A stretch of DNA of 64,000 nucleotides, taken from Massilia antarctica. Lineage in GTDB: Bacteria; Pseudomonadota; Gammaproteobacteria; Burkholderiales; Burkholderiaceae_D. Position 1 is the first letter of the stretch. The number at the start of each line of letters is the position of its first letter. The notes under the pieces are model-generated. The model did no database searches. It saw only the letters and a program-made list of their open reading frames with translations, and had not been told where the DNA came from. The DNA lies in assembly GCF_015689335.1 (NCBI RefSeq), contig NZ_CP065053.1, positions 6,262,001-6,326,000 on the forward strand, read 5' to 3'. The position numbers and the translations under genes were made by a program. Positions 12,430-20,596 of this stretch are shown here, piece after piece.

Positions 12430-12658
12430 GCTGATTCTCCGGTGTGAGTGGGATGACAAGTAAATTGCCGTAATCACAGTAAGTCAACGATCGCGCAAGT
12501 GCCAGCCGAACGACTGCTTTCGGTGACGACCATCAACAGCGACCGGCCCCTGCGACGCCGCTCAATCTCGCGCCCGCCCGCCAGGGCCAGTGTGTAAGAT
12601 AGTGCGAACACGTGTGGAGCAGACGCATGATCTGACGACACTGATTGGAGGAACGACT

Positions 12659-13285
12659 TTGCGAACGATGCCGGAAACACGTGCCTGGGTGCGCATGCCC
12701 TCGGGCCGCCGTCTCGACCTGCTCAACCCCACGCCGTTCGACTGGGACGACAGCGATCTGGCGATCGGGTTGGCCCGCACCTACCGCTGGGGCGGACATT
12801 CGGTATGGCCGCTGCCGCTGTCGGTCGCCCAGCATTCGATCGCCGTCATGCAGTTGAGAAAAAACGCGGCGGGCGGAACGCTCGACCCGCTCACCGAACT
12901 GCGCGAACTGCTGCACGATGCCGAGGAAGGCTTGCTGGGATTCGACGCCATTTCCGTCATCAAACCCTTTCTTGGCGACGCCTTCCGCAGCCTGACCCTG
13001 CGCCTGGAACAAGTCATTTTCCTGCGCTACGGTCTGCCCGGCTGGACCGTTCGGGAACACGCCGCGCACAAGCGTGCCGACCGCCTCGCCGCCGCCAGCG
13101 AAGCGGTGCACGTTGCGGGCTGGACCAGGGAGGAGGTGAAACACACCTTGAAAATTTCCGCCAAGCCCCAGAGCGACGATCCCCTGTTTCCCGTTTACGG
13201 CGGCAGGCCGTGGGAGCCGTGGACACCCGACCTGGCTTGTTCCCGCTTTCTCGATGAGCTGAACCGGCTCAAGGCCGGCCTGTGA
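12659..13285 (+). CDS. HD-domain hydrolase (YfbR-like nucleotidase family)
   Basis: About 208 residues. Metal-binding pattern of the HD superfamily: SVAQHS, ELLHDAEE (the HD pair) and a downstream Asp in HKRADRLAA. Arrangement and size resemble YfbR/YfdR-like 5'-deoxynucleotidases, though the substrate is not proven. A strong ribosome site (GGAGG at 12647-12651) is seven bases from TTG at 12659 and sixteen from ATG at 12668, so TTG is the better start. Followed by the non-coding element at 13329. Confidence 0.8.
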   Translation: MRTMPETRAWVRMPSGRRLDLLNPTPFDWDDSDLAIGLARTYRWGGHSVWPLPLSVAQHSIAVMQLRKNAAGGTLDPLTELRELLHDAEEGLLGFDAISVIKPFLGDAFRSLTLRLEQVIFLRYGLPGWTVREHAAHKRADRLAAASEAVHVAGWTREEVKHTLKISAKPQSDDPLFPVYGGRPWEPWTPDLACSRFLDELNRLKAGL

Positions 13286-13328
13286 GCGCCCGCCCGCCGC
13301 CTTGCTCACCTAAGCCACGGATTTCACA

Positions 13329-13525
13329 GGCTTTTTGACGATATCCACAAGAAGTGTGGATAACATTGTGGATAAGCCCCACCGGGCACCGCTTAGCGCC
13401 CGGTTTTACGCGGGTTTCTACAAAATGCCCGTTCGGCAGGCAGCAATTAAGTTGAATAAAATCATGAACTTAAAACGACCCTGACCGCGCGGGGAAACTG
13501 TCCATTCGGCAAATTTCTACACGGA
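13329..13525 (+). promoter_or_regulatory. DARS-like element A: three DnaA boxes plus IHF-like site
   Basis: Non-coding. DnaA boxes: ATATCCACA at 13341-13349 (forward, one mismatch), TGTGGATAA at 13355-13363 and 13367-13375 (both reverse, perfect). Gaps are 5 and 3 bases. A conserved block GCGGGTTTC-ACAAAATGC begins at 13410. An IHF-like AATCATGAACTTA lies at 13460-13472 and AAATTTC-TACA at 13511. The same order and spacing recur at 16911-17103. See findings. Confidence 0.65.
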
Positions 13526-13554
13526 GGCAAAACAGGGGATAACTCGTGTGGTCT

Positions 13555-13583
13555 TTGACAAAGTCCCCCAGCTGTCATAGTGT
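13555..13583 (+). promoter_or_regulatory. Putative promoter of the REC-PAS regulator gene
   Basis: Perfect TTGACA at 13555-13560, a 17-base spacer, TAGTGT at 13578-13583 (3/6), then six bases to the ATG at 13590. This position predicts a leaderless or near-leaderless transcript. A GGAG lies only three bases from the ATG, too close for a standard ribosome site. Confidence 0.45.
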
Positions 13584-13589
13584 GGAGCC

Positions 13590-14495
13590 ATGCCCGCATC
13601 CTCCTCCGACAACGCCCCGCAGGGCGACCTTCTCATCATGGACGACGACCCGTCCGACCCGTCCACGCCTCCGGCGCAGGAAAGCGCTCCCTGGCGCATC
13701 CTGATCGTCGACGACGATGTGGACGTCCACGTGGTGACCAAGTTTGCGCTCAGCAATGCCCAATTCCAGGGACGGCGCCTGTGCTTCCTGCACGCCTACA
13801 GCGGCAAGGAAGCACTCGCCACCCTGCGCGCCACACCCGATATCGCGCTGGTGTTGCTCGACGTTATCATGGAGACGGACGATGCCGGCCTGCGCGTGGC
13901 GCGCCAGATCCGCGCCGACCTGCACAACGAGCTCGTGCGCATCGTCCTGCGCACCGGGCAACCGGGCCAGGCGCTGGAACACAGCATCATTTGCGATTAC
14001 GACATCAACGATTTCTGGTCCAAGGCCGACCTGACCACGCGCAAGCTGTTTACCACCGTGATTGCTTCGCTGCGCGCGTATGCCGGCCTGCAGGCGGCCG
14101 CGGCCGACCGTGCCGCGATGGCTGCCGAACTCGACAAGGCGCGCCAGCTGCAGGCGCTGCTCGGCCAGCAAGCGCTGGTGCTCAAGCTCGACCCCAAGGG
14201 CCGCATCGTCGAAGCCAGCGAGCGCCTGTGCCAACTGGCCGGCGCCCGTCCCGAGGCGCTCGTCGGACACGATCTGCACGCCTTGCATGCAGGTGCATTT
14301 CCCGAGCCGCTGGTGCTCGACATCAAGCTTACCTTGGCGCGCGACGGCGCCTGGTCGGGCGACATCCAGACCCGTGCGGCCGACGGCAGCGCCCTGCACC
14401 TGCGCTGCGCCCTGCTGGCGCTGAGCGAGCCGGGCGGCGCGCCTTACGAATACGTGGCGGTGGCGACCCTGCGCGACCCGGCGCCGGGCGCTTGA
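13590..14495 (+). CDS. Response regulator with REC and PAS domains (DUF3369-like layout)
   Basis: 301 residues. After a flexible acidic N-terminus (about 1-34), a receiver domain (35-165) starts WRILIVDDDVDVHVVTKFAL, with the acceptor Asp in VLLDVIMETDDAG. A helical linker and a PAS domain (about 190-295; LKLDPKGRIVEASERLCQLAGA) follow. There is no DNA-binding, GGDEF or kinase output, so it probably works through protein contact. The REC part resembles regulators in which REC is followed by the domain usually called DUF3369. No kinase is adjacent. Immediately upstream is DARS-like element A. Confidence 0.82.
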   Translation: MPASSSDNAPQGDLLIMDDDPSDPSTPPAQESAPWRILIVDDDVDVHVVTKFALSNAQFQGRRLCFLHAYSGKEALATLRATPDIALVLLDVIMETDDAGLRVARQIRADLHNELVRIVLRTGQPGQALEHSIICDYDINDFWSKADLTTRKLFTTVIASLRAYAGLQAAAADRAAMAAELDKARQLQALLGQQALVLKLDPKGRIVEASERLCQLAGARPEALVGHDLHALHAGAFPEPLVLDIKLTLARDGAWSGDIQTRAADGSALHLRCALLALSEPGGAPYEYVAVATLRDPAPGA

Positions 14496-14506
14496 CGGTG
14501 CCGGCC

Positions 14507-14532
14507 GCGCCTGTCCGGGCGCGCACAGGCGC
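14507..14532. terminator. GC-rich hairpin after the REC-PAS gene
   Basis: GCGCCTGT (14507-14514) pairs with ACAGGCGC (14525-14532) around a ten-base loop, 11 bases past the stop codon. There is no T-tract, so intrinsic termination is uncertain. Confidence 0.4.
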
Positions 14533-14550
14533 GGCGGCCTGAACAGTTGC

Positions 14551-14654
14551 GCCTGAGCGGCCCTGCCTGAGCGGCCCTGCCTGAGCGGCCCTGCCTGAGC
14601 GGCCCTGCCTGAGCGGCCCTGCCTGAGCGGCCCTGCCTGAGCGGCCCTGCCTGA
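14551..14654. repeat. Seven perfect tandem copies of a 14-bp unit
   Basis: Unit GCCTGAGCGGCCCT starts at 14551, 14565, 14579, 14593, 14607, 14621 and 14635, with a 6-base partial copy at 14649-14654. The array fills the gap between two convergent genes and ends at the helicase stop codon. There are no spacers, so it is a minisatellite and not a CRISPR array. Confidence 0.97.
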
Positions 14655-16754
14655 TTACTTCCACGCGTTGCGGGCACGCTCGCGCACCAGCATGCGCACG
14701 CTGTCGGGCATGGGTTTGCGGCTTTGCGGGGTGTCGGCCGTCATCCACACCGTTTCCTCGAAGTGCTTGAGCATGGCCGGGCTGATGAAGCGCGTGCGCG
14801 CCGCGTACACATGGCGGTCGCCCATCTGGGCTTGCTGCTTGATGAAGAACCGGTTCGGCACCACCAGGTGCAGATGCTCCTTGGCGCGGGTCATGGCCAC
14901 GTACAGCAGGCGGCGTTCCTCCTCGATATCGGCGGCATTGCCGGTACTCATGTCGGACGGAATACAGCCGTCGACCACGTTGAGCACATGCACCGACTTC
15001 CACTCCTGCCCCTTGGACGAATGGATGGTCGAGAGAATCAGGTAATCCTCGTCCAGATGGGGCGGCCCGGCACGGTCGCTGGTCGCCTCGGGCGGGTCGA
15101 GCGTGATTTCGGCCAGGAAGGTTTCGCGCGAGCCATGGCCGCCCGCCAGGCGCGCCAACTGTTCCACATCGGCCACCCTTACCTGGGCATCGTCATGCAT
15201 GCGTTCAAGGTGCGGCAGGTACCAGTTCTTGACCAGCTCGATATCGGCCGGCCAGCGCAGCCCCGGCGCGCGCAGGGCGCGGAACAGGGCGACGAATTGC
15301 GGCCAGTCGCCGCCGCTCTTGGCGGGCGCGGCAAATTGCTCGACCGCATGCAACGGCTCGGCCGCCTCGGCGACCGCATCGAGCAATCGGGTGGCGGTGG
15401 CGGCGCCGATCCCGGGCACTAGTTGCACCACGCGAAACCCGGCCACTCTCCCGCTCGGATTCTGGGCAAAGCGCAATACCGCCAGCACATCCTTGATATG
15501 GGAGGCTTCGAGGAACTTGAGGCCGCCAAATTTGACGAAGGGGATGTTGCGGCGCATAAGTTCGAGCTCTAGCGCGGCGCTGTGGCTGGCCGCGCGGAAC
15601 AGCACCGCCTGCGCCTTGAGCGCCATGCCCGTCTCGCGGTGCTCCAGGATGCGATTGCAGACCCAGCGCGCCTGCTCGGCTTCATCGGGAATGAGCACCA
15701 CTTGCGGCAGGACGGTCGAGACCTTGTCGGTCCACAAGGTCTTGGCGTGGCGTTCGAGCGCGGCACCGATCACGGCGTTGGAAGCGTCCAGGATCGGCTG
15801 GGTCGAACGGTAATTGCGGTCCAGGGTGACGATGCAGGCTTCCTGGGCGAATTGTTTTGGGAAGTCGAGAATATTGCGCACCGTGGCGCCCCGGAAAGAA
15901 TAAATCGACTGGGCATCGTCCCCGACCACCATCACGCCCTCCCCGCCCGGCTTCATGCCCATCAAGATCGCGGCCTGGAGGCGGTTGGTATCCTGGTACT
16001 CGTCGACAAGGATATGGTCGAACTGGCCGCCTATATGCGCGCCCAGGTCGGGATCAGCCGCCATCTCGGCCCAAAACAGCAAAAGATCGTCGTAATCGAG
16101 CACGTTCTGTTCCTGCTTGGCATCGACGTAGGCGCCGAACAGGGTCTTGAGCTGGGATTCCCATTCGCTGCACCAGGGAAAGGTACTTTGGAGCACCAGC
16201 GCCAGGGTCTCGCGGCTGTTGACCACGCGCGAATAAATCGCAAGGCAGGTTCCCTTGAGGGGAAAGCGCTTGTCGGTCTGGGTCAGGCCGATTTCGTGGC
16301 GCACCATGCCCATCAGGTCTTCGGAGTCGCCGCGGTCGTGGATGGTAAACGATTCCTCCAGGCCGATACGGCCGGCGTAGTCGCGCAACAGGCGCGCGCC
16401 GATGCTGTGGAAGGTGCCGGCCCAGGGCAGACTGGCCGGGGGCTGGCCGCCGCGCGCACCCATGATGCGGTGCAGGACATTGCCGGCGCGTTGGGTCATT
16501 TCGCTGGCGGCGCGGCGCGAAAACGTGAGCAGCAGGATGCGCTGGGGATCGGCGCCGCTCATGATCAGGCGCGCCACCCGGTGCGCCAGGGTATTGGTCT
16601 TGCCAGACCCGGCGCCGGCGATCACCAGCAAGGGCCGCGCGCTGCCGGCGGCCACGCCGATGTCGTGCTCGACAGCGGCACGCTGGGCGGGATTGAGGCT
16701 GGCGAAGGGATCGTCGGGGGAAACGGCAAGGGGAACAGCGGTCATGGCGGGCAT
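14655..16754 (-). CDS. UvrD/Rep-family superfamily 1 DNA helicase
   Basis: 699 residues. Motifs in order: Q-motif region LNPAQRAAVEHD, Walker A GAGSGKT, TFHSIGARLL (Ia/Ib area), DEYQDTN (motif II), GDDAQSIYSFRGA (III), RNYRST (IV), STIHSSKGQEW (V) and YVAMTRAKEHL (VI). These ATP-dependent 3'-5' helicases unwind DNA in repair or replication restart. It is distinct from a canonical UvrD in its C-terminus and slightly shorter (UvrD about 720). Start is ATG 16754 or ATG 16745; neither has a clear ribosome site. A LexA-like box lies 18 bases upstream of 16754, suggesting SOS control. Confidence 0.9.
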   Translation of the reverse strand: MPAMTAVPLAVSPDDPFASLNPAQRAAVEHDIGVAAGSARPLLVIAGAGSGKTNTLAHRVARLIMSGADPQRILLLTFSRRAASEMTQRAGNVLHRIMGARGGQPPASLPWAGTFHSIGARLLRDYAGRIGLEESFTIHDRGDSEDLMGMVRHEIGLTQTDKRFPLKGTCLAIYSRVVNSRETLALVLQSTFPWCSEWESQLKTLFGAYVDAKQEQNVLDYDDLLLFWAEMAADPDLGAHIGGQFDHILVDEYQDTNRLQAAILMGMKPGGEGVMVVGDDAQSIYSFRGATVRNILDFPKQFAQEACIVTLDRNYRSTQPILDASNAVIGAALERHAKTLWTDKVSTVLPQVVLIPDEAEQARWVCNRILEHRETGMALKAQAVLFRAASHSAALELELMRRNIPFVKFGGLKFLEASHIKDVLAVLRFAQNPSGRVAGFRVVQLVPGIGAATATRLLDAVAEAAEPLHAVEQFAAPAKSGGDWPQFVALFRALRAPGLRWPADIELVKNWYLPHLERMHDDAQVRVADVEQLARLAGGHGSRETFLAEITLDPPEATSDRAGPPHLDEDYLILSTIHSSKGQEWKSVHVLNVVDGCIPSDMSTGNAADIEEERRLLYVAMTRAKEHLHLVVPNRFFIKQQAQMGDRHVYAARTRFISPAMLKHFEETVWMTADTPQSRKPMPDSVRMLVRERARNAWK

Positions 16755-16772
16755 TCAAACGGGAGTTGACAT

Positions 16773-16792
16773 GACTGTACATTTATCCAGTA
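16773..16792 (-). promoter_or_regulatory. LexA-like SOS box upstream of the helicase
   Basis: The plus strand reads GACTGTACATTTATCCAGTA, 16 of 20 matches to the LexA palindrome TACTGT-N8-ACAGTA; the core is CTGT-N8-CCAG (one mismatch from ACAG). It sits 18 bases upstream of the first possible helicase start, where a repressor could block transcription. Confidence 0.6.
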
Positions 16793-16910
16793 TTATTGCG
16801 CAAGTAAAAACCTTCACGGTTTTCCGGCGCGGGGTCCATGCCCGCTGCATAGCGGTCTTGAAAGCGACGGTCAAATTTGCCCTATGCGCGCTAAGTAGCC
16901 GTTTCTAAAG

Positions 16911-17103
16911 CGCTTTTTGGGATATCCACAATCGCTGTGGATAACTTTGTGGATAATCCCCTCTTGACAGTCCGCAAGCGTGTAACGATGCGGGTTTCAA
17001 CAAAATGCTCATTCGTGAGGCAGAAATTATGCCTATATAAATCAAGCACTTACAAAGTCAATGGGGAAGGCGCTAAAAAATATTAAGAAATTTCCTACAA
17101 GAT
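16911..17103 (+). promoter_or_regulatory. DARS-like element B: three DnaA boxes plus IHF consensus site
   Basis: Second copy of the element at 13329. ATATCCACA at 16922-16930 (forward), TGTGGATAA at 16936-16944 and 16948-16956 (reverse), with gaps of 5 and 3 bases, identical to copy A. The block GCGGGTTTC-ACAAAATGC starts at 16990. AATCAAGCACTTA at 17040-17052 is a perfect match to the IHF consensus WATCAANNNNTTR. AAATTTCCTACAA lies at 17088. It occupies most of the gap between the helicase and the small gene at 17217. No reading frame is supported here. Confidence 0.7.
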
Positions 17104-17216
17104 TTTTTTGTGCATAACCGCTGGTCTTGCACGCAGCCGAAGGCGGGTGGTTCGATAACATTCTGATACGCATATGGGGCCCCTTATGCCAGCCCTGCGC
17201 CACCACCCTGCACCGT

Positions 17217-17444
17217 TCAATGCGCGAGCACCTCGCGCCGGCGCTGCGGTTCCAGCAAGACCCGGGCGATCACGTCGGGATGGATATCCTGCGCCTTGAG
17301 GTACTCGATGGCGCACACCGTGTTGCTGCTTTCCTGGACCGAGATGGCATGGTTGACGATGTCGCGCTGGCGCACGTCCTGGCGTTGATACGCTGGTTCG
17401 GCCACGGCGAAACCGCCGCTGTCGGGGCGTTGCTGTCGATTCAT
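17217..17444 (-). CDS. Small soluble hypothetical protein
   Basis: 75 residues. The core AISVQESSNTVCAIEYLKAQ, then DIHPDVIARVLLEPQRRR, looks like two helices with a short turn. The composition matches real small proteins of this group better than a shadow frame. The ATG at 17444 has AAGGA nine bases upstream. Both sides are non-coding: element B on one side and about 240 bases on the other. The function is unknown. A DNA-binding or antitoxin role would be speculation, as there is no toxin partner beside it. Confidence 0.6.
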   Translation of the reverse strand: MNRQQRPDSGGFAVAEPAYQRQDVRQRDIVNHAISVQESSNTVCAIEYLKAQDIHPDVIARVLLEPQRRREVLAH

Positions 17445-17687
17445 GTTGTGATTTCCTTACAGGGCATTCAGAACGGCGGAAAGGGAACCCGATACTGCCT
17501 AGGGAGTATCCATCAATAAAGATCAAAGTCAATGTCAAGGTTCCATCGAAACGGCAAAAAATATGCTTGAAGCATAGGTTTTCAGTCGCCATTTTTACAA
17601 GGGGCAACACAGCGCCGGCCCCTGGCGACGCCGCCTACAATCCGGTCAGGCGCCAGTGCGCATGCCACCATGAGGAACGAGGACATC

Positions 17688-19119: not shown

Positions 19120-20178
19120 TTAAGCTGATGGTGCGCCAAGGTCAAACACCGCCTGCACGCTGCGCGCATGCAGGCTGCGATCGAACCACTGTTCAAGCTC
19201 TGCCTGAGTTGCCTGAGCGATGCGCTGCATTTCCGGCGCCGGCAAGTCACCGAACCGGCTGCGCAACAGGCTGCCCAGCACCCCGCGTAGCGCAATGACT
19301 TGTCCTTCCGCTTTGCCTTCCGCTTTGCCTTCCGCTTTGCCTTCCGCTTTGCCTTCCGCTTTGCCTTCCGCTTTGCCTTTCGCCATGCCTTCGGCGCTTC
19401 CCTTTTGAAAGCCGAGTTCCTCGAACTGCTCGGCCCAGGTTGCAAGCTTACCGCCCATGTCAGCACCCTCCTCCACACTATCAACCACGCACAATTCCTC
19501 TTTGCTGGCTCCGCGTGCCAGCAGTGCGTTGATCCACACCTGAACCGAACGCCGCAGGTTGGCCTGGGGTGAACCCTTGAACCATGTGGTCAGCGCAGCA
19601 AAGACATTTTTTGAGACATCGGGGGCGACCGAAAGTTCAAGCCGGAACAGCAGCGCCAGCAAGCTGGCGTTCGCTTCCAACTCTGACTTGTCCAGGCGCT
19701 GCTGGTCGATCAGCACGTAGCGCTGGGATGGCTGCAAGGCCGCCAGCTCGGCTGGCGCTTGCATGAGGAGTCCAGCCAGCTCCAGGCTGGCACTCCAGCG
19801 CGGCACACCATTGTAGAACACCAGCGGCAGCACCGGCGGCAACAGCAAGCCAGGGGACAATTCGTGGCCCTTGACCAGGTCCTGGTACAACAAGCCGACG
19901 TAGGTCTGCATGCGCAAGGCCATCCAGCGGTCCACGCCGGACTGGCATTCGATCAGGATGTACACGTACAGGAACTGCTCGCCAATCCGCACGCGCCAGA
20001 CAATATCGTCCTGGCGTGCCGACAAATGATCGCTCACGTACGCCGGGTTGACCCGCTCGAAGGCCGATAGCGCAACGTCGTCGAGCAGGGTGAAGGACGT
20101 AAAATTCGTGATCAGTTCGCGCACCAGTTCAGAGTGGGCGAACAGCGAGCGGTATCCGAGGTCGTGAGGGGTAGGCAT
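19120..20178 (-). CDS. Rpn-family PD-(D/E)XK nuclease (YhgA/RpnA-like)
   Basis: 352 residues. N-terminal nuclease domain: DLGYRSLFAHSELVRELI, the DDIVWRVRI strand carrying the catalytic Asp, and YILIECQS (ExQ motif). The C-terminal part (VIALRGVLGSLLRSRFGDLP to QWFDRSLHARSVQAVF) matches the DUF4351 type. Family members are called recombination-promoting nucleases or putative transposases. Between the domains is a repetitive hydrophilic linker of KAEG units encoded by a 12-bp tandem repeat. The ATG at 20178 gives the usual N-terminus; an upstream in-frame ATG at 20205 is less likely. It is convergent with the chromate genes. Confidence 0.88.
   Translation of the reverse strand: MPTPHDLGYRSLFAHSELVRELITNFTSFTLLDDVALSAFERVNPAYVSDHLSARQDDIVWRVRIGEQFLYVYILIECQSGVDRWMALRMQTYVGLLYQDLVKGHELSPGLLLPPVLPLVFYNGVPRWSASLELAGLLMQAPAELAALQPSQRYVLIDQQRLDKSELEANASLLALLFRLELSVAPDVSKNVFAALTTWFKGSPQANLRRSVQVWINALLARGASKEELCVVDSVEEGADMGGKLATWAEQFEELGFQKGSAEGMAKGKAEGKAEGKAEGKAEGKAEGKAEGQVIALRGVLGSLLRSRFGDLPAPEMQRIAQATQAELEQWFDRSLHARSVQAVFDLGAPSA
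19306..19389 (-). repeat. 12-bp tandem repeat encoding the KAEG linker
   Basis: Six perfect plus-strand copies of TTCCGCTTTGCC at 19306-19377 and a degenerate seventh to 19389. Because 12 is a multiple of 3, slippage changes linker length without a frameshift. Read on the minus strand it encodes repeated Gly-Lys-Ala-Glu. Confidence 0.95.
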
Positions 20179-20596
20179 GGCGCATTGTAGCGAGCGTCCA
20201 TGCACTGCCTTTGCGCTACCTCAGGCGTGTGCGGCGGCCCTTCAGCGACTTCCTCGCATTTGTTTCTGCAATAAATAACTCTTCCTGCCGTGCCTGCATA
20301 TCAGCCATGATGGCTTTTTCATGCTAGCCAGGCGGCACTGGCGCCTGAACCGGCGGCCTCACTCCAGGCAGACGCTTCATGCAGCCCGACCGGGGCGGAC
20401 GGGGCGGCCTCGAACGATGTATCGGCCTCGCCTATCGCGGCAGGCGCGCGCCAGCGCCAACGTCGCCACGGTGGCGTCGACCTTGACCCGGCACGCCGCA
20501 ACGGCGGTGACGGCGTCGATCCCTACGCATGAAGTAGTTGGGCTAGCGGTCTCCGACAAGGCATACTTGCGCATCACTCACCACTTGGACGGACCG
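20179..20596. other. Gene-free stretch between the Rpn nuclease and fghA
   Basis: 418 bases. A frame continuous with fghA is open across most of it, but its composition (Arg- and Ala-rich, no motif) does not look like protein. I see no promoter, hairpin or RNA motif that I would defend. Confidence 0.6.

Follow-up and report, generated by a model that had tools for sequence, protein, structure and literature searches.

The window analysed here is a stretch of 64,000 nucleotides from the chromosome of Massilia antarctica (genome G000, contig C1, positions 6262001-6326000; the genome is a single contig of 7,432,405 bases), and it contains two copies, A and B, of an element that resembles the DnaA-reactivating sequences (DARS) of Escherichia coli. 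Judged by eye, both copies are non-coding and lie between frames that we took as genes. Copy A is flanked by a frame of 231 amino acids (12590-13285), which had no match in Pfam or NCBIfam, and by a response-regulator/PAS gene (13590-14495). Copy B has on one side the start of a gene for a UvrD/PcrA-type helicase (14655-16754, minus strand) and on the other a frame of 75 amino acids, for which no family match was found. Promoter-like and terminator-like sites in the interval 13280-17500 gave a null result, with 2 and 3 sites, respectively, against 0.9 and 3.7 in shuffles.

Each copy is built from one forward DnaA box (box I) and two reverse boxes (boxes II and III), which are separated by gaps of 5 and 3 bases (Table 1). 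A sequence-only reading of this DNA, which had interpreted the copies as DARS-like, had described this triplet, its orientation and its 5/3 gaps, and the sequence bears out the description in both copies. That reading had also placed a shared block about 34 bases beyond the core and, 84-85 bases beyond it, a site resembling that of integration host factor (IHF), perfect in copy B and with one mismatch in copy A. The block and the site are present, and the mismatch numbers hold; the exact distances are 34 (A) and 33 (B) bases for the block and 84 (A) and 83 (B) bases for the site. Three features were absent from the earlier description: a fourth DnaA box in copy B, its degenerate counterpart in copy A and a third copy elsewhere in the genome. 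Offsets (+n) are counted throughout from the third base of box I.

Table 1. Features of copies A and B, with positions in the window
Feature	Positions	Strand	Sequence and remarks
Copy A, DnaA box I	13341-13349	+	ATATCCACA; geometry equals that of the E. coli DARS cores
Copy A, DnaA box II	13355-13363	-	TTATCCACA; positions read TGTGGATAA
Copy A, DnaA box III	13367-13375	-	TTATCCACA; positions read TGTGGATAA
Copy A, block common to copy B and other family copies	13410-13434	+	GCGGGTTTCTACAAAATGCCCGTTC
Copy A, IHF-like site at +117	13460-13472	+	AATCATGAACTTA; 1 mismatch
Copy A, degenerate distal DnaA box at +191	13534-13542	-	AGGGGATAA read on +; 2 mismatches
Copy B, upstream block resembling other B copies	16899-16919	+	CCGTTTCTAAAGCGCTTTTTG
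Copy B, DnaA box I	16922-16930	+	ATATCCACA
Copy B, DnaA box II	16936-16944	-	TTATCCACA
Copy B, DnaA box III	16948-16956	-	TTATCCACA
Copy B, block common to copy A and other family copies	16990-17014	+	GCGGGTTTCAACAAAATGCTCATTC
Copy B, IHF-like site at +116	17040-17052	+	AATCAAGCACTTA; perfect
Copy B, distal (fourth) DnaA box at +185	17109-17117	-	TTATGCACA

Core geometry and rarity of the element

The window holds 6 boxes of the form TTWTNCACA against 1.16 expected, and none of 100 shuffles reached 6. At up to 3 mismatches, the triplet was found at 3 places in the 7.43 Mb genome (A, B and a further copy, C), and a reversed control pattern at the same threshold was found at 0 places in the genome. 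The triplet is therefore not a dispersed repeat, and this candidate was rejected; the sequence-only reading had named hundreds of genomic copies as the outcome that would speak against it, and the genome scan returned three. Copy C (C1:1515727) has two mismatches, lies between priA and hemE, and carries a perfect IHF-like site and a distal box, TTATTCACA, at +188, with an IHF-to-box spacing of 71. Groups of three to five TTATCCACA boxes also occur at C1:1785553-1786124, 3684112-3684824 and 4260121-4260388, with no match to the 5/3 pattern.

The geometry of the core equals that of both E. coli DARS. In MG1655, the boxes of DARS1 start at L035 2108, 2122 and 2134 and those of DARS2 at L036 3136, 3150 and 3162, in each case in the order plus, minus, minus and with 5/3 gaps. 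Equal box spacing, with box I opposite to boxes II and III, is likewise described for DARS1 and DARS2 in PMC5742627. When scanned with 2 mismatches allowed per box, both E. coli DARS regions contained the 5/3 arrangement, and neither the oriC nor the datA region did. The spacing is also narrowly defined in the order to which Massilia belongs: with both gaps left free from 0 to 30 in 300 order genomes, 73 of 78 exact triplets were 5/3, and the other five all differed from one another. At up to 1 mismatch the triplet was present in 85 of the 300 genomes, and the control columns gave 0.

Beyond the core, likenesses and differences can be listed for each E. coli site. DARS2, in the rppH-mutH interval, shares with copies A and B the three-box core, its orientation and its gaps, and it has an IHF site (AGTCAATGCATTA) at +107 in the same orientation, with a second site 3 bp before; these are the sites described as IBS1-2 in PMC4245941. 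Copies B and A have their IHF-like sites about one helical turn beyond this, at +116 and +117. At +185 copy B has its fourth box, oriented like boxes II and III, whereas the consensus boxes of K-12 DARS2 are at +209 and +304 (both plus) and at +328 (minus), and DARS2 needs the Fis sites FBS2-3. Because the neighbours here (the 231-aa and 75-aa frames, the response-regulator/PAS gene and the UvrD-type helicase) differ from rppH and mutH, A and B are not the DARS2 locus itself. DARS1, in the bioD-uvrB interval, has the same core geometry, and its TGGGGATAA is similar to AGGGGATAA, the degenerate distal box of copy A. K-12 DARS1 is active in vitro without added factors (PMC5742627), whereas A and B have better IHF-like sites.

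IHF-like site and fourth DnaA box across elements

Elements were collected by the core pattern only, from those matches for which loci had been extracted (many matches had none). Elements with an identical 80-base core stretch were dropped, as were most of the loci L037-L066, which were repeat loci or not 5/3, and 158 elements were kept. An IHF-like site was defined as a match to the consensus WATCARNNNNTTR in plus orientation. Sufficient sequence was available for 155 elements, and 105 of them had such a site with up to 1 mismatch between +113 and +121, against 1.6 expected from other offsets; the site was perfect in 49 of the 155. Compared with other offsets, the interval +114 to +120 was enriched 275-fold in perfect sites and 83-fold in sites with up to 1 mismatch; for the opposite orientation, the same interval held 0 perfect sites and 5 with up to 1 mismatch (4.5-fold). 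A putative IHF site is conserved in position and orientation across the elements.

A distal DnaA box in the orientation of boxes II and III was present at +165 to +225 in 115 of 154 elements at up to 1 mismatch and was perfect in 79. Eleven other windows of 60 bases held 0 to 2 perfect distal-type boxes and 3 to 20 at up to 1 mismatch. The spacing between IHF-like site and distal box was compiled for 116 elements with both sites, the first set being pooled with the second set described below, overlaps included. Spacings fell at 71-74 (31 elements), 80-86 (70) and 92-96 (8), with a few at 63-64 (2), 69 (2) and 102 (3), and not one of the 116 elements had a spacing of 75-79 or 87-91. The groups near 72, 83 and 93 are mostly about one helical turn apart, and periods of 10 to 11 fit about equally well. 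When each spacing value was counted once, the phase concentration was matched by a fraction of 0.00045 of 20,000 random draws, a figure uncorrected for kinship. Across the wider element set, the distal box thus appears to keep mostly to the helical phase of the IHF site. In copy A the corresponding box, at a spacing of 74, is degenerate; it has two mismatches and was therefore not counted. Among 19 A-type rows, crudely sorted, 15 carry GGGGATAA and the remaining four carry TGTGCATAA or TGTGAACAA.

The second set comprised 60 further places, picked from among the matches listed rather than drawn at random, which yielded 62 elements; 30 had the IHF-like site (0.45 expected) and 37 the distal box (2.4 expected). 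Two of its loci (L252 and L267) repeat loci of the first set, and without them the numbers are 29 and 36 of 60. In f75, a family outside the class, the IHF-like site and the distal box were found in 10 and 19 of 20 elements, and among members of the class in 18 and 16 of 25. A genome of 3.1 Mb in f75 has up to nine cores at up to 2 mismatches, and many distal boxes of this family are GGTGGATAA or AGTGGATAA variants.

Taxonomic spread

The elements were found in all 17 genomes of a genus sample (hand count, with the genome studied here included). In fifteen of these, two elements share a contig at a distance of 3.4 to 3.6 kb; another genome has its elements on two contigs, and the last has a single element. 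A contig of Massilia mucilaginosa (L155) bears a closely similar element pair together with a matching uvrD-type frame. All 17 genomes also have a copy whose box II is TGTTGATAA (including L003, L223, L225, L227 and L229), a constant deviation that is of the priA-side type in the present genome.

In a sample of the phylum, 118 of 249 genomes matched at up to 2 mismatches; by hand count, 36 of 53 rows of the same class and 4 of 12 of the same order did so. Five families from other classes (f74, f81, f84, f87 and f91; 47 genomes) had no match at up to 2 mismatches. A scan of named genomes gave at least 117 stretches, nearly all from betaproteobacteria, gammaproteobacteria or genomes titled just Proteobacteria, as assigned from titles and knowledge of the genera. 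The exceptions by title, among the matches listed, were one actinobacterial, one magnetococcal and one alphaproteobacterial metagenome-assembled genome.

Neighbouring genes and chromosomal context

Among the 158 elements, neighbouring genes were priA in 42 cases, xseA in 24, uvrB in 6 and a uvrD-type gene in 5. All 42 priA neighbours have their 5' end on the core side, and all 6 uvrB neighbours have it on the distal side. The 5' end of xseA is on the distal side in 23 of 24, once as far away as +1140, and in the remaining element xseA starts at least 1.5 kb before the core. All neighbour groups have similar modules, although only 13 of the 24 xseA elements carry the distal box. Gene and side differ from element to element.

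The six uvrB elements, which are from Pasteurellaceae according to their titles, lie upstream of uvrB, the place of E. coli DARS1. A further uvrB-side element (L291) has three mismatches in its IHF site, which was scored as missing, and retains the distal box. Three class members with a DARS1-type core (L286-L288) have a uvrB match nearby and an IHF-like site with 0 or 1 mismatch at +119, the offset at which K-12 DARS1 has a remnant with two mismatches; all four carry TGGGGATAA at +221. From this correspondence we infer that K-12 DARS1 may be a decayed form of the wider plan.

On the chromosome, dnaA is located at C1:1366881, 2.52 Mb from the window round the circle (hand arithmetic). In 20 samples, GC skew changed around dnaA from negative (1.21 Mb) to positive (1.58 Mb), as an origin there would predict, and became negative once more between 5.65 and 6.02 Mb, a little past a dif-like site at 5,486,935; two samples, at 1.95 and 2.32 Mb, were weakly negative, the wrong sign for an origin at dnaA. 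The sequence upstream of dnaA (L033 1-1100) contains one TTATCCACA box and repeat-like GC-rich sequence, and the exact origin is not obvious there. By hand arithmetic, copies A and B lie about 0.76 of the way along the left arm, and copy C lies 0.04 of the way along the right. The relative distance from the origin, about 0.76 here, was 0.67 in G056 and 0.83 in G298, and ranged from about 0.02 to 0.83 in eleven genomes, so that a fixed map position relative to the origin was rejected. These distances were obtained by hand; for genomes in which a dif-like site was not found, half the length served instead, and G216 was excluded because its dif-like site is implausibly near dnaA.

The genome encodes Hda (TIGR03420 above cut-off, L034:1468-2148), IHF-alpha (TIGR00987 above cut-off) and a Fis homolog with 40% identity. 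ADP-DnaA should therefore form in this organism, and a site that recharges it should be useful.

Two further features of the window are recorded. A 14-base unit (CCTGAGCGGCCCTG) is repeated seven times head to tail at 14552-14649, in the gap that separates the response-regulator gene from the 3' end of the uvrD-type gene. At 19120-20205 (minus strand), a frame of 361 amino acids carries a series of AEGK repeats towards its C-terminus; we take it to resemble transposases/nucleases of the Rpn kind.

Discussion

The best reading of copies A and B is that they are DARS, and we place the probability of this at roughly 0.8. The interpretation first offered by the sequence-only reading is supported by the 5/3 geometry shared with E. 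coli, the fixed IHF-like site, the presence of elements in 17 of 17 genus genomes and the varying neighbours. In E. coli, DnaA molecules bind head to head on boxes I and II and ADP is released, after which apo-DnaA leaves and binds ATP (PMC5742627, PMC8682772). By analogy, ADP-DnaA would bind boxes I to III of the Massilia elements, and the head-to-head pair on boxes I and II would loosen the ADP as in E. coli. A sharp bend introduced by IHF would let DnaA on the distal box fold back against the core complex and stabilise or trigger it. Apo-DnaA would then depart, take up ATP and support the next initiation. E. coli DARS2 requires IHF and Fis, and moving its IHF sites by 5 or 10 bp lowered activity to different degrees (PMC4245941).

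Several observations weigh against this reading, or against parts of it. At up to 1 mismatch, the IHF-like site is missing in 50 of 155 elements and the distal box in 39 of 154. Copy A itself has one mismatch in its IHF-like site and a degenerate distal box, and the spacing of 69 in copy B misses the nearest large group by about 3 bp. In five families (f79, f83, f85, f96 and f99), the IHF-like site and the distal box were each found in 1 of 15 non-overlapping elements; these elements, nearly without modules, are therefore bare cores or chance triplets and speak against a universal plan. Elements of related species, moreover, are not independent of one another. E. coli DARS2 could do without boxes IV-VI in the conditions of one study (PMC4245941), and its box V has an inhibitory effect (PMC8682772), so that the distal box could be a brake in the manner of box V.

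Promoters controlled by DnaA and IHF, through which DnaA would couple transcription of priA, xseA, uvrB and uvrD to replication with no recharging involved, offer another explanation, which we consider unlikely. The neighbours are often replication or repair genes, and uvrB of E. coli is a reported target of DnaA regulation (PMC11317965). Among elements that have a distal box, the motif TTGACA occurs near it in 6 of 6 of the uvrB class, 13 of 38 of the priA class, 6 of 13 of the xseA class, 1 of 3 of the uvrD class and 9 of 33 others, so that promoter control is possible and the recharging interpretation is correspondingly weakened. Against promoters, the anatomy of the elements is similar even though the 5' ends of priA, uvrB and xseA lie on different sides; elements at mtnA/tatD and at hemW/rdgB have the distal box in 11 of 11 cases each with no TTGACA near; and copy A precedes the response-regulator gene, whereas in L012 the corresponding element is turned towards the 3' end of uvrD. 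Titration, in which strong, closely spaced boxes would soak up DnaA with its nucleotide unchanged, appears less probable still. Boxes II and III are 3 bp apart, and chromatin immunoprecipitation sequencing of E. coli DnaA shows a preference for pairs 2 or 3 bp apart (PMC11317965); titration, however, needs no inverted box I at exactly 5 bp, no fixed IHF site and no phased fourth box, and three sites per genome are few for this purpose.

The remaining alternatives we regard as very improbable. A datA-like site, which would inactivate ATP-DnaA with IHF, might be suspected because datA also consists of DnaA boxes and one IHF site, which bends them together (PMC5742627). The E. coli datA region, however, lacks the 5/3 triplet with inverted first box that A, B and both DARS regions possess, and datA works in the opposite biochemical direction; identity with datA was rejected on the geometry. 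A replication origin, or part of one, has a negligible chance of being the answer. E. coli oriC too has DnaA boxes and an IHF site according to reviews, there is a single TTATCCACA upstream of dnaA, and two of the 20 skew samples have the wrong sign. Nevertheless, the skew switches around dnaA, the dif-like site and the position of A and B far down the left arm speak against an origin here, several copies occur per genome, and the 5/3 geometry is missing from the E. coli oriC region. An origin was accordingly rejected, with the two skew samples out of line, and the skew, the dif-like site and the distance to dnaA all agree with the earlier judgement that an origin was unlikely here.

The wider set invites a proposal on ancestry, which we would put at even odds. 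The ancestral DARS of gammaproteobacteria, betaproteobacteria and some other proteobacteria may have been a folding element of three parts: the 5/3 core, a hinge for IHF some 117 bp along, and a fourth DnaA box in helical phase with this hinge, by which IHF would bring distal DnaA onto the core. Both E. coli forms would then be derived, DARS1 with its IHF site decayed in place and DARS2 with Fis in the role of the fourth box, and the textbook E. coli DARS would be the exceptions.

DARS-like sequences have been reported in many proteobacterial species (PMC10380432, PMC5742627), so that finding them beyond E. coli is in principle nothing new. The same reviews describe the DARS2 spacing as conserved in E. 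coli-proximal beta- or gammaproteobacteria, and the DARS2 core is conserved in gammaproteobacteria related to E. coli (PMC4245941). We found no description of DARS in Oxalobacteraceae, or of a fourth box phased with IHF, among the matches listed for titles, abstract beginnings and passages of open-licence PubMed Central; nor did we find there the Massilia set, the frequent places at priA and xseA or the helically phased fourth box.

The accounts of DARS function cited here come from E. coli, in which DARS2 depends on IHF and Fis and DARS1 works in vitro without either; the recurrent plan of core, IHF site and fourth box provides a testable general model of recharging. The simple pattern allows such sites to be found in many genomes, and with it the origin of the two E. 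coli DARS forms becomes an answerable question. For Oxalobacteraceae, the elements offer an entry point to DnaA recharging, and together they suggest that the replication timer is older, and built differently, than the E. coli examples alone show.

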